A stretch of 42,859 nucleotides of DNA, from assembly GCA_016933475.1 (NCBI GenBank), contig JAFGAW010000037.1:1-42859 (forward strand). The letters run 5' to 3'. The translations under genes and the position numbers were made by a program. Of the stretch, positions 21,456 to 33,975 are shown in pieces. Each line of letters begins with the position of its first letter. Position 1 is the first letter of the stretch. The DNA is from Thermoleophilia bacterium. GTDB lineage: Bacteria; Actinomycetota; Thermoleophilia; UBA2241. The notes under the pieces were generated by a model. The model did not search any database. It saw only the letters and a program-made list of their open reading frames with translations, and was not told where the DNA came from.

Positions 21456-21459
<4 letters not shown>
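20491..21459 (+). CDS. putB: proline dehydrogenase
   Basis: This is the monofunctional FAD enzyme that oxidises L-proline to 1-pyrroline-5-carboxylate and passes electrons to the quinone pool. The 322-residue TIM barrel shows GLEATLDILGEHV, HISVKLSGLGYGL near residue 95, VRLDMEDSSTTDDTL near 130, VGVVLQAGL, VRLCKGIYVEPP near 185, LATHDEALV near 228 and the C-terminal RRLRENPQIAGYV that binds the substrate carboxylate. The GTG start follows a strong GGAGGGGAG site. It overlaps pruA by four bases, so the two-step proline to glutamate route is made as one unit. Confidence 0.92.
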
Positions 21460-23090
<1,631 letters not shown>

Positions 23091-23108
23091 GGCGACAGCT
23101 GCGCGTGA

Positions 23109-23153
23109 GGGCGAAGGGGCCGCGCCGGCATCGCCGGCGCGGCCCCTTCGCCC
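23109..23153. terminator. 21-bp perfect-stem bidirectional terminator
   Basis: The 21 bases 23109-23129 (GGGCGAAGGGGCCGCGCC...) are the exact reverse complement of 23133-23153, with a three-base ATC loop. It lies between the convergent ends of pruA and rocD, so it can end both transcripts. There is no U-tract; the stem is very stable. Confidence 0.8.
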
Positions 23154-23232
23154 GTCGCGGATCCGCCCCGATCGCCGGCAGAAGCTGCGTCGCCTTCGCC
23201 CGGCGGCTCGCCCAGGCGGCCGCGGCCCGGCC

Positions 23233-24468
<1,236 letters not shown>

Positions 24469-24687: not shown

Positions 24688-24716
24688 TTGCGCCCCCGCG
24701 GGCCCGCTGCTACACT
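24688..24716 (+). promoter_or_regulatory. pyr operon promoter
   Basis: TTGCGC (24688-24693), exactly 17 bases, then TACACT (24711-24716). The predicted transcript start near 24723 falls just before the PyrR-binding hairpin, so the whole regulatory leader is transcribed. Confidence 0.65.
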
Positions 24717-24724
24717 CCGCCCGG

Positions 24725-24754
24725 CCTTTAACCGTGTCCCGAGAGACCGAAAGG
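24725..24754 (+). promoter_or_regulatory. PyrR-binding hairpin in the pyr leader RNA
   Basis: The RNA matches the PyrR binding-loop pattern known from Bacillus: CCTTTAA at the 5' side, a terminal GTCCCGAGAGAC hairpin with a CCGAGA hexaloop, and GAAAGG at the 3' side. CCTTT (24725-24729) pairs with AAAGG (24750-24754). The 3' arm is also the ribosome site of the leader ORF at 24761, so PyrR with UMP bound here should block that ORF. Confidence 0.78.
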
Positions 24755-24760
24755 GGGGTG

Positions 24761-24823
24761 ATGACGCTGCCGTACCGCGACGACGGTGACGGCGGCCTTT
24801 TTTATGCCCGGATCCAGACCTGA
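24761..24823 (+). CDS. pyr leader peptide, 20 codons
   Basis: The short ORF begins with ATG at 24761 (an in-frame GTG precedes it directly) behind AAAGGGGGG and ends at TGA 24821-24823. The peptide MTLPYRDDGDG... is not rich in any single regulatory amino acid, so the act of translation rather than codon content would matter. Its codons span both arms of the terminator hairpin and the T-run, and its stop overlaps the start of pyrR. It is too short for the ORF track. No expression evidence; called from position. Confidence 0.5.
   Translation: MTLPYRDDGDGGLFYARIQT
24766..24803 (+). terminator. intrinsic terminator / attenuator before pyrR
   Basis: GCTGCCGTACC (24766-24776) pairs with GGT-ACGGCGGC (24785-24796, one bulged G at 24788 and one G-U pair) and is followed after one C by six T residues (24798-24803). 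Such a T-run is rare in this GC-rich window. The T-run ends exactly at the pyrR ATG, so termination here would silence the whole operon. Confidence 0.72.
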
Positions 24824-25391
24824 GACCGAGGCCGTGGTCCTCACGGCCGACCAGATGCGACGCACGATCACACGCATCTCGCACGAGATCCTCGAGAAGA
24901 ACCCCAAGGAGAGCCGGCTCGCCGTCGTGGGCATCCACACGAGGGGCGCCTTCCTCGGCGAGCGCATCCACCGCCTGCTCTGCGAGGTGGGGGGGCGAGA
25001 GTTGCCCCTGGGCAACCTCGACATCTCGTTCTACCGCGACGACGTCGCCGCGCGCGGCGTGGTCGGGGTCATCCCGCGCACGCCGCAACCCGAGGTGAAG
25101 GACACCAACCTGCCCTTCGAGATCGACGGCGCCACCGTGATCCTCGTCGACGACGTCCTCTACACCGGGCGCACGATCCGCGCCGCGATCGAGGCCCTCT
25201 TCGACTTCGGGCGGCCGGCGCGCGTGCAGCTCGCGGTCCTCGTCGACCGCGGTCATCGCGAGCTCCCGATCCGGCCCGACTACGTCGGCAAGAACCTGCC
25301 CACCGCGCCGCGCGAGCGCATCTGGGTGCGGCTCGAGGAGCCCGACGGGGTCGACGAGGTCGTCCTCGTCCGGGCCGGGAAGGAGGCCTGA
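24804..25391 (+). CDS. pyrR: bifunctional pyr operon regulator / uracil phosphoribosyltransferase PyrR
   Basis: PyrR senses UMP/UTP against PRPP and binds pyr mRNA; many members also make UMP from uracil and PRPP. The protein shows AVVLTADQMRRTITRISHEILEKN near the N-terminus, VGIHTRGAFLGERI, LDISFYRDDV near residue 73, the PRPP-binding VILVDDVLYTGRTIRAAIEAL near 112-132, and RPARVQLAVLVDRGHRELPIRPDYVGKNLPT near 138-168. The track start (GTG 24786) lies inside the terminator; I use ATG 24804, directly after the T-run. GTG 24834 is an alternative that starts at VVLTAD. Neither has a good ribosome site, which fits coupling to the leader peptide. Confidence 0.93.
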   Translation: MPGSRPETEAVVLTADQMRRTITRISHEILEKNPKESRLAVVGIHTRGAFLGERIHRLLCEVGGRELPLGNLDISFYRDDVAARGVVGVIPRTPQPEVKDTNLPFEIDGATVILVDDVLYTGRTIRAAIEALFDFGRPARVQLAVLVDRGHRELPIRPDYVGKNLPTAPRERIWVRLEEPDGVDEVVLVRAGKEA

Positions 25392-25393
25392 CC

Positions 25394-26335
25394 GTGGCGA
25401 AGCGCGACCTCATCTCCATGGAGGACCTCTCGCGCGAGCAGGTCGAGCTCCTGCTCGACACGGCCGAGAGCTTCCTGCCCGTGCTCGAACGCGACATCAA
25501 GAAGGTGCCGACGCTGCGAGGACGCACCATCGTCAACCTCTTCTGGGAGGCCTCGACCCGCACCTCGTCGAGCTTCGACCTGGCCGCCAAGCGGCTCTCG
25601 GCCGACACCCTCGCCCTCAAAGCCTCGGGCTCTGCCGTCGAGAAGGGCGAGTCGCTCAAGGACACGGCCATCACCCTGTCGGCCTACGGGCCCGACATCA
25701 TCGTCATGCGGCACCCCTCGGCCGGCGCCTGCCAGGTGCTCTCGGCGAACACCGACGCCAGCGTCATCAATGCCGGTGACGGCAAGCACCAGCACCCGAC
25801 GCAGTGCCTGCTCGACCTCTTCAGCCTCCGTCAGACCTTCGGCCGCGATCTCTCCGGCATGAAGATCTGGATCGTCGGCGACATCCTCCACAGCCGCGTC
25901 GCCCGCAGCGACATCATGGGCTTCCAGATGCTCGGCATGGACGTGACCCTGGCCGGCCCGCCGACGATGATGCCGCGCGGCATCGGGGAGATGGGGGTCG
26001 GCGTCGAGTACGACCTCGGCCGGCTCAAGGAGGCCGACGTCATCTACCTCCTGCGCATCCAGCAGGAGCGCATCAAGGCCGGGGCGAACTTCTTGTCCTC
26101 GCTGCGCGAGTACAGCCGGCTGTTCGGCATCACCACGGCGCGCCTGCACCCTCACCAGCGGGTCATGCACCCCGGCCCCATCAACCGCGGCGTCGAGATC
26201 GGCGCCGACATCGCCGACGACGAAGAGAACCTCATCGCTCACCAGGTCTTCAGCGGCCTCGCGGTGCGCATGGCGATCCTCTACCGCACCATCGTCGGCT
26301 ACAGCGACGTCTCGAGCGGCGGGGAGGTGCTCTGA
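25394..26335 (+). CDS. pyrB: aspartate carbamoyltransferase catalytic subunit
   Basis: This enzyme condenses carbamoyl phosphate with aspartate, the committed pyrimidine step. The 313-residue protein has both domains and the expected active-site residues: STRTSSSF near residue 55 (carbamoyl phosphate), SAVEKGESLKDTA near 78, MRHPSAG near 102 (Arg), GDGKHQHPTQCLLD near 127 (His and Gln), GDILHSRVARSD near 157 (Arg), LLRIQQERI near 217 and MHPGPINRGVEI near 258. FWEASTRTSS differs slightly from the common FFEPSTRTR. No regulatory PyrI subunit is encoded nearby. The GTG start lies two bases after the pyrR stop. Confidence 0.94.
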   Translation: MAKRDLISMEDLSREQVELLLDTAESFLPVLERDIKKVPTLRGRTIVNLFWEASTRTSSSFDLAAKRLSADTLALKASGSAVEKGESLKDTAITLSAYGPDIIVMRHPSAGACQVLSANTDASVINAGDGKHQHPTQCLLDLFSLRQTFGRDLSGMKIWIVGDILHSRVARSDIMGFQMLGMDVTLAGPPTMMPRGIGEMGVGVEYDLGRLKEADVIYLLRIQQERIKAGANFLSSLREYSRLFGITTARLHPHQRVMHPGPINRGVEIGADIADDEENLIAHQVFSGLAVRMAILYRTIVGYSDVSSGGEVL

Positions 26336-27651
26336 TGGAGCGCACGTGGAGCCGGCCGGGGCCGGCGCTCGACCTCCTGCTCAAGGGAGGTCGCGTCGTC
26401 GACCCCGGTGAGGGCATCGACGAGGTCCAGGACGTCCTGATCCGCAAGGGCAAGGTCGCCGAGCTCGGCACCAGCCTCGAGGCGCCGGGCGGCGTGCGCG
26501 AGGTCGATGCCCGCGGGCTGCTCGTGCTGCCCGGCTTCGTCGACCTGCACACTCACCTGCGCACGCCCGGGCGCGAAGACGAGGAGGACCTCGACACCGG
26601 CACCCGCGCCGCCGCGGCCGGCGGCTACGTCGCCGTCTTCGGCATGGCCAACACCGACCCCGTGGTCGACACGGCGGCGCTGCTCTCAGGCCTCGTCGAT
26701 CGCGCGAGGCGCGAGGCGGTCGTGCCGGCCGGGTTCTTCGCCGCCGTGAGCCGCGGCCTCGCCGGCGAGCAGCTCACCGAGATGGCCGAGCTCGCCGAGG
26801 TTGGCGCCGTCGGCTTCAGCGACGACGGGCAGCCCCTGGCGACCGCCCAGCTCGTGCGCCGTGCGCTGCAGTACGTCAAGCTCACCGACCGGTTCGTGGC
26901 CGTGCACGCCGAGGACGCCTCGCTGGTGCGCGACGGCCACATGCACGAGGGCGCCGTCTCGGCGCGTCTCGGCCTCGGGGGCATGCCGTCGATCGCCGAG
27001 AGCATCGACGTGCAGCGTGTGCTGGAGGTGGCGGCGTACGAGGACGGCCGCGTGCACCTCTGCCACCTGAGCGCGGCCGCCTCGCTCGAGCACCTCGAGC
27101 GGGCGAAGAAGGCCGGCGTGCGCGTCACGGCCGAGGCCACGCCACACCACCTCACCATGACCGACGACGAGGTCGCCTCTCTCGAGAGCACGCTCAAGAT
27201 GAACCCGCCGCTGCGCGAGGAGAGCGACCGCGCCGCGCTCGTCAAGGCGCTGAAGAGCGGCCTCGTCGACTGCGTCGCGACCGATCACGCGCCGCACGCC
27301 CCCGAGGAGAAGGACGTGCCGTTCGAGGAGGCGCCCTTCGGCACGACCGGGCTCGAGACCGCCTTCGCCGCGCTCTACACCGGCCTGGTCAAGAAGCGGG
27401 CCCTGCCTCTGGGCACCCTGGTGGCGCGCATGAGCGCCGGGCCGGCGGCGATCGCCGGCATCGCGCCGCCGGCGGTGCGCGCCGGCGCGCGCGCCGACCT
27501 CTGCGTCGTCGACCCCGAAGCGGTCTGGACCGTCGCGCGCGACGGCTTCCAGTCGCGCTCGAGCAACTCAGCCTGGCTCGGCCGGAAGCTGACCGGGAGG
27601 GTGCGGCTCACCGTGGCCGCCGGCCGATTGGCATGGGAGGCCGATGCCTGA
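26335..27651 (+). CDS. pyrC: dihydroorotase, class I
   Basis: Dihydroorotase cyclises carbamoyl aspartate to dihydroorotate. From ATG 26335, which overlaps the pyrB stop by one base, it encodes 438 residues. The binuclear zinc site is visible: [10 protein letters not shown] near residue 70 (HxH; the usual REPG is RTPG here), GFSDDG near 164 (bridging Asp instead of a carboxylated Lys, as in the Bacillus-type class), [11 protein letters not shown] near 191, [11 protein letters not shown] near 241 and [14 protein letters not shown] near 316 (catalytic Asp). The ORF-track entry begins 531 bases upstream inside pyrB. It overlaps carA by eight bases. Confidence 0.94.
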
Positions 27652-28953
27652 GCGCGCCCTCGTCGTCCTCGAAGACGGCGTCTGCTTCAGCGGCGAGGCG
27701 CTCGCCGGGAGCGGTACCGTCGGCGGCGAGCTCGTCTTCACGACGAGCATGACCGGGTACCAGGAGGTGGCGACCGACCCGTCGTATGCGGGGCAGATCG
27801 TCACCTACACGTTCCCCATGAACGGCAACTACGGCGCCGACCCCGCGCGTGACGAATCGGGGTCGGCGTACCCGCGCGCCGTGCTGGCGCGCGAGCTCAC
27901 GAACTACCGCTTCAACCGCGCCTCCTCGGCGACCTGGCTCGAGTGGCTCAACGAGCACGGGGTGCTCGCCGTGAGCGAGGTCGACACGCGCGCCCTGACC
28001 CGCCACATCCGCGAGCAGGGCGCGCTGCGTGCCGTCGTCTCGACCGAGAACAACGACGTGCGCGACCTGCGCCGCCGCGCGCAGCGGCTGCCGCTGATGG
28101 CCGGCCTCGACCTCGCACGCGCGGTCACGACCGATGCGGCCTACGAGATCGCGCCGCACGGCGACGGCGTGCTGCAGCCGACTGCGGGCACCGCCGACAC
28201 AGGTCTGACGCCGGCCGATGGAGAAGGCTCGGCGGCGGACGGGGCGGAGGCAGCGGACGGCGTCTCGCTGGAGGCGGACGCCGTGGAGCGCGTCTCGCTG
28301 GACGCCGAGACGCAGGCAGCGGGCGGGACCGAGGCGGGCGAGGCGCCGCCGCCGGAGGCGGGTACGGCGCCGCCCCGTCACGTCGTCGTCTACGACTTCG
28401 GCGTCAAGCGCTCGATGCTGCGCCTGCTCGCCGCCGAGGGCCTACGCCTCACCGTGGTGCCGGCGGCGACCAGCGCCCGCGAGGTCATGAAGTTGCACCC
28501 CGACGGCGTCTTCCTCTCCAACGGACCGGGCGACCCGGCCGCCGTCGAGTACGCCGTCAAGGCGGTCGGTCGCTTGCTCGGCAAGGTGCCGGTCTTCGGC
28601 ATCTGCCTCGGCCACCAGCTGCTCGCCCTCGCCCTGGGCATGACGACCTACAAGCTCAAGTTCGGGCACCGTGGCGCGAATCACCCGGTGAAGGACCTGC
28701 GCGACGTGACGATCGCGATCACGACCCAGAACCATGGCTTTGCCGTACGCGAGAGCGACACCGCGCACCCGGCTGCGCGCATCACGCACCTCAACCTCAA
28801 CGACGGCACGGTCGAGGGGCTGGCGGCGCCCGAGCTGTACGCGTCTTCGGTGCAGTACCACCCCGAGTCGACGCCGGGGCCGCACGACTCACTCCACCTC
28901 TTCGCGCGCTTCGTCGCCGAGATGGAGCGCTTCGCCGCGGAGAGGGGCGCCTG

Positions 28954-28954
<1 letters not shown>
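27644..28954 (+). CDS. carA: carbamoyl-phosphate synthase small (glutaminase) subunit with linker insertion
   Basis: CarA hydrolyses glutamine and channels ammonia to CarB. The N-terminal domain is normal ([20 protein letters not shown], then MNGNYG, residues about 30-65). The class I amidotransferase domain is intact, with [14 protein letters not shown] (nucleophile Cys), NHGFAV and [10 protein letters not shown] (His and Glu). At 436 residues it is about 55-75 longer than usual. The excess is a low-complexity Ala/Gly/Glu/Asp-rich stretch at residues about 172-245 (28160-28380) between the domains, containing a repeated VSL[ED]A unit. ATG 27644 follows GGGAGG and overlaps pyrC; the stop overlaps carB by one base. 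Confidence 0.94.
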
Positions 28955-32145
<3,191 letters not shown>

Positions 32146-32149
32146 CGCG

Positions 32150-32944
32150 ATGACGGCAGGCGACAGCGCACACGAGGGGCACGGCGAGCACTGGGCCGAG
32201 ACGGTCGCCTGCCGCGTGGTCGCGGCGCACCCGTTCGGGGCCTTCGCCGCCGTCGAAGTCGTGGCGCCGGCTATCGCCGCCGCGGCGGCGCCGGGGCAGT
32301 TCGTGATGGTCACGGTGCCGGCGCCGGGCTTCTTCCTGCGCCGCCCGCTCTCGCTGTTCACCGTGCGCGACGACCGCGTGGGCCTGCTCGTCGAGGACCG
32401 CGGCCCGGGCTCGCGCGAGCTGGCGAGGGTCGCGGTGGGGGAGACCCTGGAGCTCGCCGGCCCGCTGGGCACGCCGTTCCCGGTCGAGGGTGTGACCTCG
32501 GGGCTGCTCGTCGGCGGCGGTATCGGCTGCGCGCCGCTGCAGTACCTCGCCGACGAGCTGCGGCGACGCGGCGCGCTCGTCACCGCCGCCTTCGGCTTCA
32601 GGGACCTGCGTCAGGCGCGGGCTGCAGCCGCCTTCGACATCGAGCGCCTGTGGCTGGCGACCGAGGACGGCAGCGTGGGTCGCCCGGGCACCGTCGTCGA
32701 CCTGCTGGCGGGCGTCGACGCCGCGCCCAACACGGTCGTGTATACGTGCGGACCCCTGGCGATGGTCGCCGCCGTGCAGCGCTGGGCGCACGAGGCCCGC
32801 CTCGGTGGTTACGCCTCCCTCGAGGCACACATGGCCTGCGGCACGGGTTCCTGCCACGGCTGCGTGGTCGCGACCACCGAGGGCTACCTGCGCGTCTGCA
32901 GCGAGGGTCCCGTCTTCGCCCTCGACACGGTGGTGGCGCCGTGA
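32150..32944 (+). CDS. pyrK: dihydroorotate dehydrogenase electron transfer subunit
   Basis: PyrK carries FAD and a 2Fe-2S cluster and moves electrons from PyrD to NAD+. The 264-residue protein has the ferredoxin-reductase barrel (PGQFVMVTV and FFLRRPLSLFTV near residues 45-68, flavin binding), the NAD domain start GLLVGGGIGCAPLQYLADEL near 120, and the cluster motif CGTGSCHGCVV...CSEG near 225-245 with four cysteines. Its presence means PyrD is the NAD-linked class 1B form rather than a quinone-linked class 2. ATG 32150 is five bases after carB, and the end overlaps pyrD by four bases. Confidence 0.93.
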   Translation: MTAGDSAHEGHGEHWAETVACRVVAAHPFGAFAAVEVVAPAIAAAAAPGQFVMVTVPAPGFFLRRPLSLFTVRDDRVGLLVEDRGPGSRELARVAVGETLELAGPLGTPFPVEGVTSGLLVGGGIGCAPLQYLADELRRRGALVTAAFGFRDLRQARAAAAFDIERLWLATEDGSVGRPGTVVDLLAGVDAAPNTVVYTCGPLAMVAAVQRWAHEARLGGYASLEAHMACGTGSCHGCVVATTEGYLRVCSEGPVFALDTVVAP

Positions 32945-33975
32945 GTGCCGCCGCGCCCGGGGCGCGCCCGGTCCCGGCGCCCGACCCCGCGGAGCGCCCG
33001 GCCTTGCCGGCCGTTCCCGAGGCGGAGGTCGACCTGGGCGTGAGGCTGGGGCCGCTCGAGCTCGAGCACCCCTTGGTAGACGCCTCGGGCACCTTCGACG
33101 CCGTCGAGTACGCGCGCCGGTCGCGGGGCGACTTCTTCGCCGCCTTCCCGTACGCGGCCTACGTGCCCAAGACGGTCACCGTGGAGCCGCGCGCCGGCAA
33201 CCCGCCGCCGCGGGTCACCGAGACGGCCGCGGGCATGATCAACGCGATCGGCCTCGCCAACCCGGGTGTCGAGGCGTGGCTCGGGTCGCTCTCCGAGCTC
33301 GGGGCGTTGCGGCAGCCGATGATCGTCAGCGTCGGCGGCAACGCGCCGGAGCACTACGCCGCCGTCGTCCGGGCCGTCGAGGCGTGGGCGGCCGGCCGCG
33401 CCGGGGCACGGCCGGCCGTGGGCGGCTACGAGCTCAACGTCTCCTGCCCCAACCTGTCGGGTGGTCGGCTGATCGGCGCCGAGCCGGCGGCGACCGCCGA
33501 GGTGGTCGCCGCCGTGCGCGCCGAGACCGGGCGCCCCGTCTTCACGAAGCTCACGCCGAACGTCACCGACGTGCTCCCGGTCGCCGCGGCCGCCCTCGGG
33601 GCCGGCTCGACCGGGCTCGCCCTCGTCAACACCTTCAAGGCGCTGGTGCTCGAGCCGAAGAGCCTGCGACCGTTCCTCGGCAACCGGACGGGCGGCCTCT
33701 GCGGCCCGGCCATCAAGCCCATCGCCCTGCGCATGGTCGCCGAGGTGGCGGCCGCCTTCCCGGCCGTGCCGCTGGTCGGGATGGGCGGCGTCGTCTGCGG
33801 CCTGGACGCCCTCGAATTCATCGCCTGCGGGGCCACCGCGGTGGCCGTCGGGGCGGCGAACTTCAGGGGCGTCGAGGCGCCCCGGCGCATCCTCGACGAG
33901 CTCCGCCGCGAGCTGGCCGTACGGGGCTTCGGCGGTGCGAACGAGGCTCGCGGCGTCGCTCTCGCCGGGGCCTGA
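32941..33975 (+). CDS. pyrD: dihydroorotate dehydrogenase, class 1B catalytic subunit
   Basis: PyrD oxidises dihydroorotate to orotate with FMN. From GTG 32941, which overlaps pyrK (GTGA), it encodes 344 residues. A Pro/Ala-rich N-terminal extension of about 28 residues precedes the barrel. Key segments are HPLVDASGTFDAVEY near residue 40, INAIGLANPGVEAWL near 100, GYELNVSCPNLSGG near 163 with the catalytic Cys of class 1 enzymes, FTKLTPNVTDV near 202, and GGLCGPAIKPIALRMV near 255. The next canonical gene, pyrF, is missing; mihF follows after a 92-base gap. The long minus-strand ORF over this gene is a shadow. Confidence 0.94.
   Translation: MSAAAPGARPVPAPDPAERPALPAVPEAEVDLGVRLGPLELEHPLVDASGTFDAVEYARRSRGDFFAAFPYAAYVPKTVTVEPRAGNPPPRVTETAAGMINAIGLANPGVEAWLGSLSELGALRQPMIVSVGGNAPEHYAAVVRAVEAWAAGRAGARPAVGGYELNVSCPNLSGGRLIGAEPAATAEVVAAVRAETGRPVFTKLTPNVTDVLPVAAAALGAGSTGLALVNTFKALVLEPKSLRPFLGNRTGGLCGPAIKPIALRMVAEVAAAFPAVPLVGMGGVVCGLDALEFIACGATAVAVGAANFRGVEAPRRILDELRRELAVRGFGGANEARGVALAGA

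Follow-up and report, generated by a model that had tools for sequence, protein, structure and literature searches.

The textbook mechanism of pyrimidine control in actinobacteria is translational repression of pyrR, as in Mycobacterium. The locus described here raises the question of how PyrR would act on an actinobacterial pyr operon in which a predicted terminator, in addition to a PyrR binding loop, lies ahead of the pyrR start. The locus is located in a 42.9-kb stretch of DNA with a GC content of 72.2%, the whole of which is referred to as the window. The window originates from a Thermoleophilia MAG (2.49 Mb, 80% complete), to which Thermoleophilia bacterium UBA2241 is a near relative.

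The first gene of the operon, pyrR (24804–25391, + strand), starts with an ATG, and its product matched the NCBIfam PyrR equivalog with 229.8 bits. The nearest solved structure of the product is 1ufr, a pyr mRNA-binding attenuation protein, which we take to be the PyrR of Thermus. The remaining genes occupy 25394–33975 on the same strand, giving the order pyrR-pyrB-pyrC-carA-carB-pyrK-like-pyrD, where the pyrK-like gene encodes a dihydroorotate dehydrogenase electron-transfer subunit. The adjoining region (21456–24468) contains the genes of an L-glutamate γ-semialdehyde dehydrogenase (+ strand) and an ornithine aminotransferase (− strand), the latter being divergent from the pyr promoter.

The promoter was read from the sequence at 24688–24716 (+ strand), with a −35 element TTGCGC (24688–24693), a 17-nt spacer, and a −10 element TACACT (24711–24716). 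A TTG…TAnnnT motif was present at a comparable distance upstream of the loop in 14/14 loci of the window's family (14 loci with pyrR from 6 genera), and the −10 motif of the family is located a few bases upstream of the PyrR loop. The predicted transcript start, approximately 24723–24724, probably coincides with or adjoins the first base of the loop. The automatic sigma-70 consensus scan did not report the promoter at 24688–24716, nor did the automatic terminator scan report the leader hairpin described below; the weak −35 element and the bulged stem probably explain these misses.

The predicted PyrR binding loop occupies 24725–24754 (+ strand) and consists of an outer stem, in which CCUUU (24725–24729) pairs with AAAGG (24750–24754), an inner stem (24733–24738/24745–24749), and the loop CCGAGA. 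This element resembles the consensus of Bacillus subtilis pyr attenuation and of Rfam RF00515 (CCUUUAA…GUCCnGnGAGRC…AAAGG). The pattern TTTAAN(3-9)CCN(1-4)GAGR gave a single match in the whole 2.49-Mb genome, at the pyr leader, and a control pattern gave 0 matches in the same genome. RF00515, which takes in the antiterminator/terminator part of Firmicutes besides the loop, placed the loop on the correct strand with 16.5 bits versus a gathering score of 54. No match for the leader was obtained at the gathering threshold, and a search of the whole genome with RF00515 gave 0 matches at E≤10; the PyrR model of Rfam misses the element. Among 33 aligned loops, the core showed no variation. In the gap-free alignment A4, 92% of the cells of the loop stems were paired, and three pairs were changed on both sides.

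A putative Shine-Dalgarno sequence, GAAAGGGGGG (24749–24758, + strand), overlaps the 3′ arm of the loop, and the same overlap was observed in relatives. It precedes a candidate leader ORF of 20 codons (24761–24823, + strand; MTLPYRDDGDGGLFYARIQT and a stop codon), which spans the terminator and ends 20 nt within pyrR, with its stop overlapping the pyrR start. The pyrR frame itself is closed by TGA TGA at 24759–24764, just 3′ of the Shine-Dalgarno sequence, and the pyrR ATG is located approximately 50 nt downstream of the ribosome site in the loop. The predicted intrinsic terminator hairpin (24766–24796, + strand) pairs 24766–24777 with 24784–24796 and has a folding energy of −20.4 kcal/mol (z = −3.6 against shuffles). 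It is followed by a U-tract, T6 (24798–24803, + strand), that abuts the pyrR ATG at 24804; no other run of six or more T occurs on the two strands of the window. RNA 3′ ends are predicted near 24803 when PyrR is bound. The first-pass annotation had described a promoter, a PyrR-binding hairpin, a 20-codon ORF with its ribosome site in the 3′ arm of that hairpin, and a second hairpin with six T residues ending at the pyrR ATG. These elements were recovered at the positions given above, and one correction was necessary: the stem of the second hairpin has 12 bp with one bulge (G24788), rather than 11 bp.

We compared the leader with those of relatives, as the first-pass annotation had proposed. 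The loop, hairpin, and U-tract were kept in 14/14 loci of the window's family and in 17/18 loci of a second Thermoleophilia family, which has a larger layout with the same order of loop, ORF, and hairpin with U-tract. The pyrR start codon of the second family, GTG or ATG, lies in the 3′ arm of the hairpin and overlaps the TGA of the leader. At least five T were present in the last 8 nt before the ATG in all 14 loci of the window's family. The hairpin was paired in 94% of the cells in the window's family and in 92% in the second family, the latter without excess covariation. The outermost counted pair of the window-family hairpin varied on both sides (GC in 8, AU in 5, and GU in 1 of the 14 loci), with a double-sided change in 5 sequences, which was reached by 1 of 500 shuffles. 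The covariation of the loop and hairpin stems is slight because these stems are nearly invariant.

The other Thermoleophilia loci with the loop form a contrast group, in which the terminator was found in 0/80 loci. A close-spaced layout was observed in 67/80 of these loci, and in 66 of the 67 the pyrR start is 3–16 nt past the AAGG of the loop, the 3′ arm being the ribosome site of pyrR, which shows what the loop acts on. The other 13 loci (L026, L027, L145, L147, L148, L150, L153, L154, L156, L158, L159, L177, and L178) lack a terminator and have a spaced leader ORF that in many cases overlaps the start of pyrR; a leader ORF of this type is possibly an intermediate form.

Both layouts of the contrast group speak for purely translational control, as in mycobacteria, in the window as well. 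PyrR would then block the translation of pyrR directly or via a coupled leader, the hairpin, which does cover the region just 5′ of the pyrR ATG, would merely occlude the pyrR start, and the U-tract would be incidental. However, this explanation does not account for the only T6 in a window of 72% GC or for the T-rich end that was kept in 14/14 members, and the two TGA codons bar pyrR from being started at the Shine-Dalgarno sequence in the window. We therefore regard purely translational control as unlikely.

The evidence for the leader ORF was evaluated separately. An ORF of this kind occurred in approximately half of the shuffled window leaders (null 0.50), and a gate ORF occurred by chance in 20–60% of most shuffled leaders. 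The occurrence of the ORF was rejected as evidence in itself, the null being mostly 0.2–0.6. Since the ORF alone is not beyond chance, its support comes from the relatives. The leader frame was free of stops in 12 loci of the window's family and 18 loci of the second family, where the internal length of the ORF is 60, 63, or 66 nt and the preceding spacer differs by single bases. The p values for frame maintenance were 0.014 and 0.13, and both were 0.13 under a stricter null. The BLOSUM scores of the changed codons gave no protein-coding signal in any frame, and the peptide sequence was not conserved above chance; accordingly, we do not argue that the peptide sequence matters. The ORF proposed in the first-pass annotation is present with its ribosome site as described; its start codons vary among relatives, and the comparative sequence support for its being coding is moderate.

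L002, from the window's genus, has ACG at the position of the window's leader ATG; L004–L007, L011, and L013 have neither ATG nor GTG at the leader start position; and the homologous leader frame of L005 is interrupted by a stop. AUC or AUA is present at the leader start in 5/18 loci of the second family (L014, L016, L119, L121, and L122). These AUC, AUA, and ACG codons are possibly near-cognate, deliberately weak starts. Because several relatives have no standard start codon in the leader frame, the conserved property seems to be that a ribosome occupies the leader, whatever the peptide.

The missing standard starts would also fit an explanation without a separate leader peptide, in which the gated frame is pyrR itself with an N-terminal extension or in which binding of the 30S subunit alone blocks the hairpin. 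Most loci of genera g2 and g6 have a GTG, 2–4 nt past the Shine-Dalgarno sequence, that is in the pyrR frame and remains open across the hairpin, as this explanation would have it. On the other hand, an ATG-started ORF out of the pyrR frame is present in the window, L003, L008, L009, and L015, and the pyrR frame of the window is closed by the tandem TGA codons. We consider this explanation distinctly improbable. The loci with the open GTG (L004, L005, L007, and L010–L013) may encode an N-terminally extended PyrR; in L006, which belongs to the same group, the frame stops after 8 codons.

The folding energy of the loop plus terminator was compared, for each leader, with that of the best nascent-RNA fold without the 3′ arm of the terminator. 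The loop plus terminator was favoured by 6–16 kcal/mol in 14/14 loci of the window's family (−25.1 versus −12.1 kcal/mol in the window), whereas the nascent alternative was favoured in 13/15 loci of a Bacillus-like comparison set. The gap between the loop and the terminator is only 4–13 nt in the window's family, too short to accommodate an independent antiterminator easily. These folding energies suggest that the window's family has no competing antiterminator. A Bacillus-type mechanism, in which an antiterminator forms by default and is prevented when PyrR binds the loop, is very improbable for the window: pairing of the 5′ arm of the terminator with the region of the loop is possible in its nascent RNA, at a mean probability between 0.38 and 0.73 according to how the arm is defined, and such pairing is common in the second family, but upstream pairing of this arm is near zero in several members of the window's family, and the energies and the short gap stand against it. 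In the second family, the energy margin is smaller and the 5′ arm of the terminator often pairs with the loop in the nascent RNA; a mixed mechanism with an antiterminator is conceivable there. Bacillus-like terminators without a leader ORF spanning them are found in most Coriobacteriia-type loci.

If there is no antiterminator, something else must keep the terminator hairpin from closing under pyrimidine shortage, and the Shine-Dalgarno sequence in the loop, together with the ORF through the hairpin, points to the ribosome as the gate. We consider it likely that the leader is a Thermus-like, PyrR-controlled, ribosome-gated transcription attenuator, which is the best-supported explanation of the locus. 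The first-pass annotation had proposed the same logic, with PyrR-UMP masking the ribosome site, the leader left untranslated, and the terminator allowed to form; conservation, the contrast group, and the folding energies all support it, and we infer the dynamic steps as follows. Transcription would begin at or beside the PyrR loop. At low UMP, a ribosome would take the Shine-Dalgarno sequence in the 3′ arm of the loop and initiate the leader ORF. The footprint of a ribosome extends approximately 15 nt downstream, and a ribosome at the leader start codon would mask the greater part of the 5′ arm of the terminator (24766–24777). As it advanced, it would hold the hairpin open, and RNA polymerase would continue into pyrR-pyrB-pyrC-carAB-pyrK-pyrD. 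At high UMP, PyrR-UMP would clamp the loop and exclude the ribosome, the terminator would form, and transcription would end near 24803.

The ribosome-gated attenuator may carry a further layer. The overlap of the leader stop with the pyrR start, a feature absent from the first-pass annotation, was observed in most members (as [GA]TGA in the second family, for example, or as ATGA in L015) and suggests translational coupling besides attenuation. The hairpin probably also occludes the pyrR start and couples the translation of pyrR to that of the leader, in which case pyrR would be translated only by ribosomes that had first translated the leader and then reinitiated where its stop overlaps the pyrR start. 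A single hairpin would then serve as both terminator and lock on the pyrR start, and PyrR would control transcription of the operon and its own translation by one ribosome block. This dual lock, together with its interconversion, within one bacterial class, with direct translational repression and a leader-only intermediate, is a tentative proposal, to which we give slightly less than even chances. If true, it would allow the route from one known PyrR mechanism to another to be traced. The direct, leader-only, and leader-plus-terminator forms all occur in Thermoleophilia on the same loop, so that this class makes it possible to trace and test how one regulatory RNA evolved between a translational and a transcriptional output.

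A PyrR attenuator was reportedly proposed for Thermus strain ZO5 by Van de Casteele and co-workers in 1997, with a translating ribosome meant to prevent the terminator. The present locus shares with that proposal PyrR, the lack of an antiterminator suggested by the folding energies, and a ribosome that would prevent the terminator. The features of the Thermus type that are present here are a loop upstream of pyrR, a leader-ORF ribosome site in the loop, and a predicted terminator that lies ahead of pyrR and inside the leader ORF. The present locus belongs to another phylum, Actinomycetota, and may further differ from the Thermus system in that its transcript probably starts at the loop, its hairpin extends over the region of the pyrR start as well, and its leader stop overlaps pyrR. 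The Mycobacterium smegmatis system, for which Fields and Switzer are said to have described translational repression by PyrR in 2007, has the same loop with a ribosome site in its 3′ arm; unlike in that system, pyrR is not started at the site in the loop here, and a leader ORF and a terminator intervene. The absence of a competing antiterminator, as judged for the window's family, sets the locus apart from Bacillus subtilis pyr attenuation. As in the leader-peptide attenuators of amino-acid operons, terminator formation would be set by the position of the ribosome, but the signal would be PyrR blocking initiation rather than stalling at codons, and the peptide is not conserved. To our knowledge, ribosome-gated PyrR attenuation has been proposed for Thermus only, and the present locus appears to be a new, actinobacterial member of that mechanism. 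The comparative support for ribosome-gated attenuation in this deep actinobacterial lineage comes from two families, set against a clean contrast group.

Outside Thermoleophilia, candidate leader ORFs spanning a terminator downstream of a PyrR loop were found in two loci of Omnitrophota and in several further families of Actinomycetota; chance ORFs are common, and individual loci may owe theirs to chance. If these layouts are genuine, the dual-lock design may be widespread. The loci concerned include L055 and L077 (Omnitrophota) and L093, L105, L194, L209, L221, and L222 (other Actinomycetota). Within the operon of the window, the carA product (436 aa) matched a 361-position profile in two stretches, with a low-complexity insertion of approximately 60 residues between its two halves (28070–28268).
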